A program made the position numbers and the translations under genes. From the IMG/VR virus record IMGVR_UViG_3300047560_001112, positions 1-21,212 of that record: DNA of 21,212 bases; one strand, 5' to 3'. This stretch comes from a virus. The notes beneath the pieces are model-generated. The model was given only the letters and a program-made list of their open reading frames with translations. It ran no database searches and was not told the origin of the DNA. Positions 4,155 to 16,081 of the stretch are shown one piece after another. Numbering within the stretch: the stretch's first letter is position 1; the number at the start of each line of letters is the position of its first letter.

Positions 4155-4181
4155 GGGCAGCTTCGGCTGCCCTTTCTTTTT
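4155..4181 (+). terminator. Intrinsic terminator after nrdF
   Basis: Perfect 7-bp stem GGGCAGC / GCTGCCC (4155-4161 and 4166-4172) with a TTCG tetraloop, then TTTCTTTTTAT. It ends the nrd operon 16 bases after the nrdF stop. Confidence 0.92.
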
Positions 4182-4190
4182 ATACAAACA

Positions 4191-4199
4191 TGGTATAAT
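4191..4199 (+). promoter_or_regulatory. Extended -10 promoter for the PA14 gene
   Basis: TGG followed by a perfect TATAAT (4194-4199), 12 bases after the terminator T-tract. No good -35 is visible at the right distance (CCTTTC), so the extended -10 probably carries recognition. The start point would be near 4206, about 35 bases before the ATT start at 4241. Confidence 0.6.
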
Positions 4200-4240
4200 A
4201 GTTTTGTTAGTGATCCGCACTAACTTTAGGAGACAGGAAG

Positions 4241-6184
4241 ATTAAGCGATTAGCATACTCAACATTAGTTGCATCAATAGTCTTGCTTATGGTATTTTGG
4301 GCTTCACCTGCTCATGCACAGACCAGGGAAGAATATGACCAAGTAGTAGCTGAAGCAGAGGCTAAAGTTTCTGCTGCTCAAAATGCCCTACAACAGGCAG
4401 AGCAAGCGTATCTAGAGGCGGTACAAAGAGGTCAGTCTCTACAGACAGAAATAGATCTTGCACGTCAGGGATTACAGATAGCACAAACAAACTACGAACA
4501 ATTACTTATGCTTGACCCTAACTGGGTTAGACCAACAAAAGACATTCAGGTATCAGAACAAGTCCCTCACACAGTTCAGGTAAGCAACACCACAACAATC
4601 GAAGAAACAGCTTTGATTCCAAGAACGATACAGGTCCCACATACCGAGACTATTCAAACTATTACTCAAGTACCAAGAACCATTGTGGTCCCACATACTG
4701 AGACAATTACGGAAGTGACCCAAGTACCAAGAACAATACTAGTTCCACATACAGAAACAGTCAGAGAGGTAACACTAGTTCCTAGAGAAGTTACTACGCT
4801 GATCCCTGGTGGGCTTACAGCGAAATCCTATAATATGTATGGATATAATAACGCACCACCTTTACCTGGAGAAAACAGATTAGTATCTACACTTAACGTT
4901 CCTAATATTAATTATGATTGGGGTGGCGGACAGATTCTAAACTCAGGACTATATGAAGATGTTATTGTTAATTTTAGTGGAAATATACAGATACCTAGTA
5001 CAGGCACATATGGATTTTACGCACCAGGCGACGACGGAATTAAATTAATTATTGATAACAATACTATTATTAATGACTGGTACGATAAGGGCGGAGGTGG
5101 CTCAACAACATCTCTTTACTTAACAGAGGGTAGCCACACAATAACGCTATGGTTCTATGAGAATGGTGGTGGGGCAAACGTCTGGTTGTACTGGGCAAAG
5201 CCAGGGTATGGCTGGGAGATTGTCCCATCATCATCATTTGGAACACAGACAGTAACAGAGACAGTCTACGATGAAGTTGTAACCTATACTGACGTAACGA
5301 CATACACAGAAGAAATAGTTTATGATCAAGTGATAAATTACATAGATGTGATAACATATACAGAAGAAGTTGTTTATGACGAAGTCATAGAATATACAGA
5401 TGTAACTACATATACAGAGGAAACCGTATACGATTCGGTAACAACGTATAGGGATGTAACCACATATACGGAAGAAGTTATTTACGAAACAGTTTGGCAC
5501 ACAGAGACCGTTCCTGACATGGATGCTGTACAGCCAGAGATACAGAACCCAGAGCTACTCCTGATTGTAAATGAAAGACAAGCCAATTTAGATAGTGCTA
5601 CTGACGCTCAAATTGAAAACTCAAGTATAATAGAAGTAACGTCACAAAACGTATTAACTAAACAGCAGGAGTTAAATGTCGCTCAATCAGAACTGGAAGC
5701 CATTCCACCATTCAGAGAGTTACCACCTACGCCTGAGAAGACCACGGAACCTACTCCAGAGCCAACAGAAAATGTCATTGAACCGCTACCTGAACCAGAG
5801 CAAACAAGTACCCCAGAAGCCCCCACAACAGCCGTAGAACAGGCACAGGCAGAGTTAGAGCAACGTGCTGAACAAAATGACACAGGAGTTTTACCATATA
5901 CATTAGCAGATGCAGTAACAGAAGTTCAAGCAGAAGAAGTATTAGCAGTCCTAACAGACCCCACAGCCCTTGCTGAGGCGTTTTCAGAAGGGGTAGGACA
6001 AACTGTAGCCTTTGTAGGAGAGCTACTTACAGATCCAGGCAAGGCAATATCAGCAGTATTGGAAAATGTATCTCAGGCAGGTCTAGATATGACAGACGAC
6101 CAGCGTGAGAAAGCACAAGAAGTCATCGTGCCTGTGGTAATCGTATCACAAATTGCAAGCATGATGGTAGGGAGAATAAAATGA
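4241..6184 (+). CDS. Secreted coiled-coil / repeat / PA14-like stalk protein, ATT start
   Basis: I do not know a named homologue. From the proposed ATT start the product has 647 residues. Visible parts: signal peptide 1-26 (KR, hydrophobic core, SPAHA then Gln27); coiled coil about 27-88 rich in Ala, Gln and Glu; four 18-residue repeats of VPRTI.VPHTET type (108-179) plus a partial one; a PA14-like beta domain about 190-335 with GDDGIKL; four 18-residue repeats of VYDEVVTYTDVTTYTEE type (340-411) plus a partial one; a second coiled coil about 438-490; a Pro/Glu/Thr linker about 493-540; and a C-terminal hydrophobic stretch ending VGRIK. The start is taken at ATT because AGGAG sits at 4228-4232, 8 bases upstream, and only this start gives a full signal peptide; a TTG at 4283 would remove most of its core. 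PA14 domains often bind carbohydrate. A surface stalk or adhesin, an exclusion protein or a lysis factor are all possible. Arg AGA and Ile ATA are frequent, unlike its neighbours. Confidence 0.75.
   Translation: MKRLAYSTLVASIVLLMVFWASPAHAQTREEYDQVVAEAEAKVSAAQNALQQAEQAYLEAVQRGQSLQTEIDLARQGLQIAQTNYEQLLMLDPNWVRPTKDIQVSEQVPHTVQVSNTTTIEETALIPRTIQVPHTETIQTITQVPRTIVVPHTETITEVTQVPRTILVPHTETVREVTLVPREVTTLIPGGLTAKSYNMYGYNNAPPLPGENRLVSTLNVPNINYDWGGGQILNSGLYEDVIVNFSGNIQIPSTGTYGFYAPGDDGIKLIIDNNTIINDWYDKGGGGSTTSLYLTEGSHTITLWFYENGGGANVWLYWAKPGYGWEIVPSSSFGTQTVTETVYDEVVTYTDVTTYTEEIVYDQVINYIDVITYTEEVVYDEVIEYTDVTTYTEETVYDSVTTYRDVTTYTEEVIYETVWHTETVPDMDAVQPEIQNPELLLIVNERQANLDSATDAQIENSSIIEVTSQNVLTKQQELNVAQSELEAIPPFRELPPTPEKTTEPTPEPTENVIEPLPEPEQTSTPEAPTTAVEQAQAELEQRAEQNDTGVLPYTLADAVTEVQAEEVLAVLTDPTALAEAFSEGVGQTVAFVGELLTDPGKAISAVLENVSQAGLDMTDDQREKAQEVIVPVVIVSQIASMMVGRIK
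4562..4810 (+). repeat. Left 18-residue (54-base) coding repeats
   Basis: Inside the PA14 gene, codons 108-179 hold four repeats of exactly 18 codons that begin V/I-P-H/R-T (starts at 4562, 4616, 4670 and 4724), then a partial fifth beginning VPREV. The pattern alternates hydrophobic and Thr/Glu residues, as in extended beta structure. The first copy is the most divergent. Confidence 0.85.
5258..5518 (+). repeat. Right 18-residue (54-base) coding repeats
   Basis: Codons 340-411 hold four 18-codon repeats of the form E-x-VYD-x-V-x-x-Y-x-DV-x-TYTE (starts at 5258, 5312, 5366 and 5420), then a partial fifth ending HTETVPD. Period and copy number match the left block on the other side of the PA14 domain. 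The partial copy returns to the HTET motif of the left block. Confidence 0.85.
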
Positions 6185-6384
6185 AACTAATTAAATCAAT
6201 ATTCAAATGGATTAAAGAAGTACTAAAAGAGAGTATCAATCAGGTATTCACCCTACTAGGGTTTTTCATCGCATGGCTAACTCTTACAGGGTCTGCTAGA
6301 GATATCGTGGGTATGGCAATCATTTGGTCAACAATCATTTGGCTAATCACAATCAATCTAAGAAAAGATAAGGAGGACAAATAA
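6181..6384 (+). CDS. Small two-helix membrane protein, holin-like
   Basis: The product has 67 residues: an amphipathic basic N-terminus (MKLIKSIFKWIKEVLKE), two hydrophobic segments (about 20-35 and 41-58) joined by a short GSARD turn, and a charged tail RKDKEDK. The size and two-helix layout fit class II holins, but nothing specific proves that role. Its ATG overlaps the stop of the PA14 gene in an ATGA arrangement, so the two are translationally coupled and perhaps act together. Its codon choice (AGA, ATA) is like the PA14 gene rather than the next gene. It overlaps the next start by one base. Confidence 0.75.
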   Translation: MKLIKSIFKWIKEVLKESINQVFTLLGFFIAWLTLTGSARDIVGMAIIWSTIIWLITINLRKDKEDK

Positions 6385-6620
6385 TGAACTACGCAAAAAT
6401 CGCAAAGCGTATGCTTGCACTCTTCATCGTTTCAGCATTGACAACTATCGGTGCTGGTGCTATCATTGGTATTGACACATTACAGACTGCTATCCTAGCA
6501 GGTGTTATGGGTATTGCTAATGTAGTTGAAGACCTTGCTCGTGGCTACCTAAACGACGGAGAGCTATCAGACGAGGAAATCGATGCAGCATTCGTAAACA
6601 ACACACCAGAAGAAGACTAA
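6384..6620 (+). CDS. Small membrane protein, actinophage holin-like
   Basis: This 78-residue protein begins MNYAKIAKRML and has one long hydrophobic region with Gly/Ala-rich faces (about 10-52: ALFIVSALTTIGAGAIIGI, then TAILAGVMGIANVVE), followed by an acidic soluble tail (ELSDEEIDAAF...PEED). Small proteins of this type sit near lysis genes in actinobacteriophages and are usually annotated as holins or left as membrane proteins. It has a good ribosome-binding site (AAGGAGGA, 6369-6376). CGT arginine codons link its base use to the phage core rather than to the PA14 gene just before it. It is the last gene before a promoter-hairpin unit. Confidence 0.75.
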   Translation: MNYAKIAKRMLALFIVSALTTIGAGAIIGIDTLQTAILAGVMGIANVVEDLARGYLNDGELSDEEIDAAFVNNTPEED

Positions 6621-7671: not shown

Positions 7672-8517
7672 ATGGCAAAATCACAATACCCAGTAGATGG
7701 GAAACCAGGCAAAGCCTGGAAGGTTACTTCGCCTTTTGGTTGGAGAATGCACCCAATTAAGAAAGTAAAGAAGCATCACAATGGTGTGGACATTTGGCAA
7801 GGAGGGGCGACAACTTATCTTGAGGCATGTTTTGATGGCAAGGTAGTTGCAGTTAAGCCTAACAATGATCCAAACTCAGCAGGACACTCAATTATTGTCC
7901 AGTCAACCGTTATGGGCAAGAAGGTCACATGGACCTACTTCCACATGGTTCCTGGCTCTATTAAGGTTAAGAAGGGGCAGAAGATAGAAGCTGGAACAAT
8001 CGTTGGTAAGATGGGTGAGTCTGGTTTCGCAACAGGTAAGCACCTTCACTGGGAGATCTGGGCAGGTCACCTAAAGGGTCAGCCAATGGCTGGGTTCAAT
8101 ACAGGTAAGGGCTACTACGACCCAATGAAGTTCATGGAAGCAACTATTGCATGGGAGAAGGCAAACGCAGAAGCAGTTAAGCCTACACCAGAAGATGCTC
8201 CTGTAACTGTAGCACCTACTCACTCAGTGCCAGAAGTTCCAACTGTAGCAGTGCCAGAAGAGGCAAAGGTTGTAGACCCAGCAGAGATTGCTGAAGCACC
8301 TAAGCCAGCAGCACCAGCAAAGATGGCTTATCCTGGTAAGTATATCAAGATTGGCTCTAAGGGATCTGCTGTTAAGTACCTACAAACAAAACTAGGTCTT
8401 GAGGCTGATGGGGTATTTGGTCCAGCAACAGCAAACGCAGTTAAGGCTCTTCAGAAGAAGCACAAGCTAGATGCTGACGGAATCGTTGGTCCAAAAACTT
8501 GGTCAAAGTTAGGCTAA
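7672..8517 (+). CDS. M23 peptidase with C-terminal peptidoglycan-binding domain (endolysin)
   Basis: This 281-residue protein probably cuts peptide cross-bridges of the host wall at lysis. Residues 1-150 form a LytM-type M23 domain: His36 and Asp40 in HNGVD and His126 in HLHWE are the expected zinc ligands, with His91 (YFHM) and His124 as catalytic partners. A Pro/Ala/Val/Glu linker follows (about 165-215), then a peptidoglycan_binding_1 domain (219-281) with GSKGSAVKYLQTKLG and two ADG.(F/V)GP(A/K)T loops. There is no signal peptide, so release would need a holin. AAGGAGA lies at 7656-7662, 9 bases before the ATG. Its close paralogue follows at 8583. Confidence 0.93.
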   Translation: MAKSQYPVDGKPGKAWKVTSPFGWRMHPIKKVKKHHNGVDIWQGGATTYLEACFDGKVVAVKPNNDPNSAGHSIIVQSTVMGKKVTWTYFHMVPGSIKVKKGQKIEAGTIVGKMGESGFATGKHLHWEIWAGHLKGQPMAGFNTGKGYYDPMKFMEATIAWEKANAEAVKPTPEDAPVTVAPTHSVPEVPTVAVPEEAKVVDPAEIAEAPKPAAPAKMAYPGKYIKIGSKGSAVKYLQTKLGLEADGVFGPATANAVKALQKKHKLDADGIVGPKTWSKLG

Positions 8518-8582: not shown

Positions 8583-9209
8583 ATGACTAAAGCACAATTC
8601 CCAATCGATGGGAAACTAGGGAAGGACTTCAAAGTTACTTCCTATATGGGGTGGAGAATCCATCCAACTAAAAAGGTAAAGAAGTTTCACACTGGTACTG
8701 ATATCATTTCAAAGAATCAGCCATGTGTTATTGAAGCACCTTATGATGGCAAGGTTGTCCGTGTCACTCTACATGATGTTAACTATGGAAACTTTGTTAT
8801 CATCCAACACAAAATCCAGGGAAAGTACTATACAACTTTGTATGGTCACATGAAGGACGGATCAGTTAAGGTTAAGGTTGGTCAGAAGATTACTGCTGGT
8901 ACTGCCATTGGAAAAATGGGTACTACAGGAGCTTCAACTGGCGTTCACCTACACTGGGAACTCTGTGCTGGAAAGAAGTGGGTATTCTCAAGAACTGGTA
9001 AAAACTTTATTGAACCAACTAAGTTCTTTACTAATCTTATTGCACTTGAGAAATCTATTGCTACTGCACCTGTAGAAGCATCAGACGCAGACCCAGTTGC
9101 TCCTGCTCCAACTCACGATGACGCTGGTGCTGCTGCTATAGAGGCATCACTAAATGCACCTGTAGCACCTGTTGTTCCTGCGTCAAAGAAATCTAACTTG
9201 CCAAAATAG
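8583..9209 (+). CDS. M23 peptidase, paralogue without wall-binding domain
   Basis: This 208-residue paralogue of the preceding protein has an N-terminal M23 domain alignable without large gaps (compare GWRMHPIKKVKKHHNGVDI with GWRIHPTKKVKKFHTGTDI). The active-site set is complete: His36, Asp40, His89 (YGHM), His122 and His124 (HLHWE). After about residue 155 it has only a low-complexity Ala/Pro/Asp tail (about 165-208), ending KKSNLPK, and no peptidoglycan-binding repeat. It may be a second lysin with different targeting or a virion-associated wall hydrolase. It has its own promoter and a strong ribosome-binding site, AAGGAGGT, 7 bases before the ATG. Confidence 0.92.
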   Translation: MTKAQFPIDGKLGKDFKVTSYMGWRIHPTKKVKKFHTGTDIISKNQPCVIEAPYDGKVVRVTLHDVNYGNFVIIQHKIQGKYYTTLYGHMKDGSVKVKVGQKITAGTAIGKMGTTGASTGVHLHWELCAGKKWVFSRTGKNFIEPTKFFTNLIALEKSIATAPVEASDADPVAPAPTHDDAGAAAIEASLNAPVAPVVPASKKSNLPK

Positions 9210-15331: not shown

Positions 15332-16081
15332 TTAATAAAGATCAGTATTTACTGGGTCATACTTAAATTTACCAGCAACATATGTTGCTTTAGTTTGACC
15401 AGCATCGTTTGAGTAGAAGACCATACAGGACTCTCCACCACCAGCTTCACCAAACTGCATACGGAATGGATAGTATTGTCCAGCCGTAAGGTTAACAGAT
15501 ACATTAGACCCAACTGATCTAGCACCATGTGCACCACCATTGTCTACAAGGGCATTAGATCTAGTGTAGTTGCCGTGCTTTGCATTGTCACCCATCCACA
15601 AGAACGAGCAGTCATCGGAGATTGTGTAGAAGTTATAGTTTCCAGTCTCAGGAGCAATAAACCATCCAGTCCACTGAAGGCTATATGCTTCATCGTAATT
15701 TAATTGCTGTGCACCAAAACCACCAAAGGTATCAACCAATACAGAAGTTCCATAATTGTTGTCCGCAATGCGTGGATGATTGTCAAAATAAGTAACGTCA
15801 TCATTCATATAGCCAGCATGTTTAGTTCTATAAAGACCATCTGTTCCATATCCAGAAGCCACTACAGTTGGAGTAAGAGTAACAATAGTAGCTTTGTTGA
15901 CGTGATCAGCATTGCCATTAATATCCATTGCACCATACATGTATCCAGAACCAGGTGTTGGCAATTGAATCTGTGCCAAAGTAGGGTCTGGTGGAACAGG
16001 TGGGGTAGACGGACCAAACATAAAACCAGAGGCACTAGCACCTCTAATAAACATATCTCCTGGATTAGATATGTATCCCAT
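15332..16081 (-). CDS. PA14/GLEYA-like protein, possible virion component
   Basis: The 249-residue product has a Pro-rich N-terminal segment (MGYISNPGDMFIRGASASGF, then TPPVPPDPT) and a PA14/GLEYA-like beta domain from about residue 75 to 245. Its signs are the GLYRTKHAGYMNDD start, WTGWFIAPETGNYNFYTISD, DDCSFLWMGD, and a late YYPFRMQFGEAGG followed by FYSNDAG. Such domains bind carbohydrate in yeast adhesins and glycosidases. No signal peptide is visible, unlike the other PA14-type protein, so a tail or capsid role is more likely, but this is inference. AGGAAG precedes the ATG at 16081. The gene follows 2 bases after its partner at 16084. Confidence 0.8.
   Translation of the reverse strand: MGYISNPGDMFIRGASASGFMFGPSTPPVPPDPTLAQIQLPTPGSGYMYGAMDINGNADHVNKATIVTLTPTVVASGYGTDGLYRTKHAGYMNDDVTYFDNHPRIADNNYGTSVLVDTFGGFGAQQLNYDEAYSLQWTGWFIAPETGNYNFYTISDDCSFLWMGDNAKHGNYTRSNALVDNGGAHGARSVGSNVSVNLTAGQYYPFRMQFGEAGGGESCMVFYSNDAGQTKATYVAGKFKYDPVNTDLY

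Follow-up and report, generated by a model that had tools for sequence, protein, structure and literature searches.

The window analysed here is a stretch of 21,212 bases, the length of its source, a virus record classed by IMG/VR from an uncultured, aquatic phage, and it carries at 4241..6184 on the plus strand a frame that stays open for 647 codons (all coordinates below are on this strand unless marked otherwise). The gene starts at ATT rather than ATG, with AGGAGACAGGAAG preceding the start, and ends at TGA. Its 647-residue product is ordered as a Sec signal, a helix, the left repeats, a PA14 domain, the right repeats, a second helix, a proline-rich linker and a C-terminal region. The signal peptide (aa 1-26; 4241..4318), recognized from sequence and hydropathy, is expected to be cleaved after AHA and is followed by a coiled-coil helix (aa 29-87; 4325..4501) that is modelled with high pLDDT and is locked in length with its C-terminal counterpart. 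Models, homologue lengths and shuffles define a left block of hexads and 18-residue repeats, predicted as an outgoing beta strand (aa 99-190; 4535..4810), and a corresponding right block, predicted as a returning strand (aa 334-429; 5240..5527), on either side of the PA14 domain (4844..5227), which rests on Pfam and structure comparison. The C-terminal coiled-coil helix (aa 437-486; 5549..5698), mostly with pLDDT above 90, leads into a Pro/Glu/Thr-rich linker of wall-spanning type (5699..5824), which is proline-rich in most members of the family, and then into a conserved region (aa 531-645; 5831..6175) that is kept when the tip domain is exchanged. The chain closes with a hydrophobic segment and basic end at 6122..6181, a membrane anchor by hydropathy, which reaches 1.96 over 19 residues. 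Of the 66 distinct C-termini, 63 carry a hydrophobic 19-mer that gives way to a short and mostly basic tail, which, with the signal peptide, supports the proposal in the initial annotation that the protein is tethered to the membrane. The 647-residue translation contains neither an LPXTG sortase motif nor any cysteine, and hence no lipobox cysteine.

The gene is preceded by a compact set of putative expression signals. A terminator-like hairpin and T-run, GGGCAGC-TTCG-GCTGCCC-TTTCTTTTT, lies after nrdF and ahead of the stalk gene (4155..4182), followed by the TATAAT -10 box (4194..4199) of an extended -10 promoter (TGgTATAAT), and a -10-like box occupies the corresponding place in 61 distinct family contexts. 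A leader hairpin, GTTAGTG-ATCCG-CACTAAC (4206..4224), sits just before the Shine-Dalgarno sequence AGGAG (4228..4232); perfect inverted repeats of at least 5 bp occur in 45 of 61 leaders against a background of 13%, and the stems differ between clades with pairing kept. The start codons were compared over 81 contexts, a handful of which an automatic rule positioned, perhaps inaccurately. In the 59 distinct contexts with a Shine-Dalgarno match the start is ATT (26), TTG (21), ATA (10) or CTG (2) and never ATG, and the few ATG or GTG candidates in the family all lack a Shine-Dalgarno motif; neighbouring genes mostly start with ATG. Members of the L039 type have a stop codon directly before the ATT and no ATG, GTG or TTG within the signal peptide, so that any expression of the gene in these members has to begin at ATT. 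This pattern suggests that the non-ATG starts reflect selected weak initiation, and the product is thus probably made in small amounts.

The start of a holin-like gene encoding two transmembrane segments (6181..6384) overlaps the stop of the stalk gene at ATGA, and a second small membrane gene with a weak holin match (6384..6620; phrog_443, E 0.018) follows, the three genes overlapping in the window at ATGA and TAATG. In 67 of 69 distinct loci the gene immediately after the stalk gene is a homologue of the two-segment holin-like gene, and in loci other than the window the two are often separated by 11-14 bases. A second holin-like gene occurs no more than 1.2 kb away in 57 of the distinct loci. 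Further downstream, profile matches identify an M23 peptidase with a peptidoglycan-binding domain, of endolysin type, at 7672..8517. The M23 peptidase genes at 7672-8517 and 8583-9209 are adjacent, and only the first carries the peptidoglycan-binding domain. M23 or CHAP hydrolases lie downstream in sampled loci; only 14 of 45 loci yielded a window-like M23 gene at a distance of 6.5 kb or less. In 40 of 63 loci terL is at most 2.5 kb upstream. The lysis region of some relatives also contains a gene for a proteasome-subunit-like protein (Ntn hydrolase), at 8142-8663 in L067 and 8598-9176 in L014, with Pfam E values of 8e-6 and 0.002.

The record also carries whiB, thymidylate synthase and ribonucleotide reductase genes, and terL in a close relative has its best counterparts, at about 54%, in Streptomyces and Gordonia phages. 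On the strength of whiB and this terL affinity, the host is probably an actinobacterium. Isolated phages gave only weak and partial matches, none covering most of the protein, and no match to a relative with an exchanged tip; no such gene is annotated near terL in phage Gilson. A scan of genome contigs with the stalk-PA14 region returned 22 pattern matches, none of them a relative, the left block alone as query retrieved only two loci, and no description of this family was found in the literature.

The repeats flanking the PA14 domain are regular on both sides. The left block consists of the 18-residue copies VQVSNTTTIEETALIPRT, IQVPHTETIQTITQVPRT, IVVPHTETITEVTQVPRT and ILVPHTETVREVTLVPRE with partial units at the flanks, and the right block of VYDEVVTYTDVTTYTEEI, VYDQVINYIDVITYTEEV, VYDEVIEYTDVTTYTEET and VYDSVTTYRDVTTYTEEV with a partial IYETVWHTETV. 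Identities at a lag of 18 number 39 of 74 in the left block and 43 of 78 in the right, far above the maxima of 23 and 27, respectively, reached by 5000 shuffles over all lags of 4 to 39. The four repeats plus partials that the initial annotation placed on each side of PA14 are therefore real, as are the helices that it placed outside both blocks, although the 18-residue period is built on an underlying hexad, of type V-P-x-T on the left and E-V-x-x-Y/W on the right. The return of the left-block motif HTET in the last right copy, to which the same annotation had drawn attention, extends no further than the closest relatives (L001-L004), other members having a replacement there; it was rejected as a meaningful feature and, judged from these sequences, is probably chance. 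Counted outward from PA14, proline in the left strand reaches 48% at positions 3 mod 6 and at most 9% elsewhere, and aromatic residues in the right strand reach 64% at positions 3 mod 6 and at most 11% elsewhere. The register of the model sets left prolines and right aromatics opposite each other, and the right strand is acidic (26% Asp/Glu). Hydropathy correlation by register does not favour the modelled register, being lowest there, and only the proline/aromatic phase agrees with it.

Structure prediction with AlphaFold2 yields the same order of elements in two proteins. The model of the window protein (26-row alignment, mean pLDDT 67) has, in model numbering, a helix at 3-61, strands at 73-113 and 118-162, PA14, strands at 310-354 and 359-399, and a helix at 411-460, with all strand ends satisfying i+j=472. 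The model of a homologue with blocks of 56 and 60 residues (29 rows, mean pLDDT 81) has a helix at 3-82, a strand at 94-147, PA14, a strand at 298-351 and a helix at 363-433, with strand ends at i+j=445. The helices are confident, mostly with pLDDT 87-96, whereas confidence in the ribbon is low to moderate (pLDDT 34-82) and pTM is 0.31 and 0.39 for the two models. The models thus reproduce the predicted succession of helix, strand, PA14, strand and helix with mirrored strand ends, and direct contact between left and right strands is inferred from those mirrored boundaries and from the length locking described below.

The homologues, 80 related loci from one scan and more from four others, amount to a natural experiment, with segments far apart in a single chain changing length in concert. 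Left lengths were measured from DPxWxRP to GLxAxxYN and right lengths from IVPxSxF to the conserved xxDxA/PxIxD. The 32 distinct pairs fall into seven left/right classes, 25/30, 38/42, 43/48, 50/53, 56/60, 62/66 and 92/96, in which right minus left is 4 in nearly all pairs and otherwise 3 or 5, and the right lengths are multiples of six except for 53. Of the 5040 possible pairings of the seven classes only one is as tight, and it is the one observed. The window protein (92/96) and its sister L004 (38/42) have PA14 domains that are 97% identical and differ by 54 residues on each side. In a tree of the PA14 domains, where the window is sister to L004, the length classes are scattered, with 56/60 in two separate clades and 62/66 and 38/42 within a mostly 56/60 clade, so that several independent matched changes are needed, their exact number being subject to unresolved forks in the tree. 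The coils show the same pattern: N- and C-terminal coils measure 65/56 in some members and 86/77 in others, a gain of 21 on both sides, and both are shorter by about 7 in the L101-L106 clade. Coil class and ribbon class combine freely, and the two length matches are accordingly not one event. Some relatives have no ribbon, consisting of coils only or a tip domain only.

Length locking is strong evolutionary evidence for a fold of which the structure predictor gives only a faint picture, and it opens the hexad ribbon to direct testing. The initial annotation had the chain going out and back with PA14 at the tip and its coiled coils paired, and named two outcomes that would speak against this fold, a prediction without contact between the repeat blocks and homologues with independently varying repeat numbers. 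Neither the models nor the homologues refuted it; no independent variation was seen in the seven classes, the coils change in step, and the out-and-back stalk is well supported and very probably correct, with strand contact remaining an inference. The stalk is not of fixed length, as had been supposed, and changes among relatives by increments of roughly six residues. Should the ribbon be confirmed, it could serve as a spacer of programmable length.

The PA14 domain matches Pfam PF07691 at aa 202-329 (E=1.9e-9, 37.9 bits against a cut-off of 24), as do all 26 family members. A D-cis-D motif, DDG at aa 264-266, and the loop YENGGGA at aa 306-312 are both invariant, DDG in 29 alignment rows. The nearest solved structures are the RsgI3 PA14 dyad, MpPA14, MhPA14 and the Flo/Epa lectins, with Z of about 12-18. 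DDG falls on the calcium- and sugar-binding Asp136-Asp137 of MhPA14 in the alignment, and the YENGGGA loop parallels its Asp181-Gln182-Gly183 (PMC6650083); this second calcium loop is conserved in the family but has Glu/Asn where MhPA14 carries Asp/Gln. The alignment and the parallel loop make sugar binding by the tip likely, an inference made in the absence of binding data. Essentially only the PA14 part was matched in PDB and VIA comparisons, which are therefore uninformative on whether the ribbon fold is known.

Other relatives carry another PA14/GLEYA type at the tip, or PA14 followed by fibronectin-like segments, and L062 and L066 have an unrelated tip domain, the tips being exchanged while the C-terminal region and the neighbour gene stay. 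Exchangeable tips of this kind may show which host glycans these phages care about. In L110, L113 and L156-L205 very long Ala/Thr-rich coils place PA14 far along chains of up to about 1500 aa, with no ribbon on either side and, in some, an extra domain between the coils. The window encodes a second PA14/GLEYA protein at 15332-16081 on the minus strand (GLEYA E 1e-19), which has no signal peptide, lies beside a 96-aa gene, had no match in isolated phages and is possibly a virion protein. Its similarity to the tip is weak and extends over 82 residues, which provides no evidence that the two bind the same receptor.

The order of elements, the length locking, the anchor, the lectin motif and the neighbourhood are supported by sequence and models, and they can be accommodated in a single scheme. 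The protein would be exported by the Sec pathway and held by its C-terminus as a hairpin stalk, in which the outgoing chain would rise from the membrane region as a helix and continue as a long beta strand of V-P-x-T hexads, the PA14 lectin-type domain would fold at the far end, and an antiparallel strand of E-V-x-x-Y/W hexads would return with its aromatics opposite the prolines. The second helix would close the stalk by pairing with the first, with the proline-rich linker and hydrophobic tail tying it to the membrane, and stalk length would follow from how many hexads and heptads there are, matching numbers being required on both sides. Transcribed from its own putative promoter at the head of the lysis region and initiated at a weak non-ATG codon, the protein would probably be made in low amounts and probably late, the timing being inferred from position only. 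The infected cell would then present the tip at its surface, and there the tip may bind wall or surface glycans and cover phage receptors around lysis, which would reduce re-adsorption and superinfection. The scheme rests on inference for the direct contact between strands, the placement outside the wall, the binding of glycans, the timing and the biological role. Surface display with a lectin tip is likely, with topology that is predicted only. Receptor masking around lysis, taken alone, is the preferred role on the grounds that a varying tip is combined with a constant anchor and neighbour and that the gene stands first in the lysis region, yet it is an inference held tentatively, and nothing directly shows masking over another surface role. 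The whole explanation, a stalked lectin masking glycan receptors around lysis, is considered somewhat better than an even chance.

The main rival to receptor masking is a spanin-like lysis effector, an unlikely but serious possibility, in which the anchored rod would cross the wall and the lectin tip would grip an outer layer such as a capsule, S-layer or glycan coat and so contribute to envelope disruption once holin and endolysin have acted. The adjoining holin-like gene, in overlapping or near frames in 67 of 69 loci, and the hydrolases downstream are in keeping with such a role, and one-protein spanins share the N-terminal export signal, beta-rich middle and C-terminal transmembrane segment (PMC6139136). 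A spanin would, however, be expected to carry the lipobox cysteine that is absent here, the implied actinobacterial host has, as far as known, no lipoprotein-bearing outer membrane, and exchangeable lectin tips are unexpected in a membrane-fusion device. Variation of the tips between phages would suit an aggregation arm, by which infected cells stick to neighbours or particles through the lectin and progeny are released beside new hosts, as PA14 lectins of bacterial and yeast adhesins mediate cell-cell contact (PMC6650083, PMC8092209). The domain type is the sole support for aggregation, and the low amounts suggested by weak start codons count against it, leaving it rather improbable.

Two further explanations have little standing. 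That the protein is a fibre or adsorption protein of the virion with PA14 as its receptor-binding tip is very improbable: given its signal peptide of cleavable type and its C-terminal anchor, it would have been exported before virions assemble, and the gene sits among lysis genes rather than the tail genes that, with the lack of an export signal, would mark a virion fibre. The points in its favour are the second GLEYA/PA14 protein, at 15332-16081, which lacks a signal peptide, and a profile of a major head protein that matches weakly (E 0.0024) and over PA14 only. The low pLDDT in the middle of the ribbon of the window model leaves slim room for two independently folded blocks, whether hairpins, solenoids or disordered tethers, whose matching lengths would be owed only to common descent or to coincidence; this is hard to sustain against seven classes of matched length, with a sister pair among them that differs by 54 on both sides, and against mirrored strand ends without internal turns. 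Receptor masking by a stalked lectin is retained as the working interpretation. A lectin of this kind, encoded by the phage, displayed at the surface and adjustable in reach, would be an additional element of the lysis region in widespread aquatic phages. The broader proposal that this is an adjustable stalk of a new kind is plausible at slightly under even chances; it would consist of a proline-aromatic hexad beta ribbon atop a heptad coiled-coil hairpin, length-matched on both sides, would display exchangeable lectin tips through the host wall, and would be a regular component of the lysis region in a large uncultured group of aquatic actinobacterial phages.

Several known systems share parts of this architecture. 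The stalk-and-knob of bovine ultralong CDR H3 is a two-stranded beta stalk with a domain at its end, and is unrelated to the phage protein, much shorter and disulfide-rich in its knob. The PA14 lectins of RTX adhesins (MpPA14, MhPA14), RsgI3 and the yeast Flo/Epa proteins share the fold and the DDG calcium motif, whereas the phage domain sits at the tip of a phage-encoded hairpin stalk and its sugar binding is inferred. The unimolecular spanin gp11 of phage T1 is likewise a single lysis-region protein with an N-terminal export signal, an extended beta-rich middle and a C-terminal transmembrane segment (PMC6139136), but the protein described here has no lipobox, adds a lectin tip and a coiled-coil base, and belongs to phages of a Gram-positive-type host group. 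In the AhLap split domains of RTX adhesins a ligand-binding domain similarly buds between two halves of a carrier (PMC12077191), which is compact and Ig-like or a beta-roll there and an extended ribbon and coil of adjustable length here. The streptococcal antigen I/II adhesins SpaP and BspA have a Sec signal, an outgoing segment, a variable apical binding domain, a returning segment that pairs with the first into a long stalk, and a C-terminal surface anchor (PMC7732690). They pair an Ala-rich with a Pro-rich segment and are sortase-anchored, whereas the phage-encoded protein would combine a beta ribbon with a helix pair and has no LPXTG, and no sequence relation between them was found. The family is not filed under antigen I/II or the unimolecular spanins, since the LPXTG and lipobox features are not met. 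Paired segments carrying an apical domain are the feature of antigen I/II that is met, by analogy only and with strand contact inferred, and within those limits the family may be said to resemble antigen I/II adhesins in architecture and split-domain adhesins in logic.
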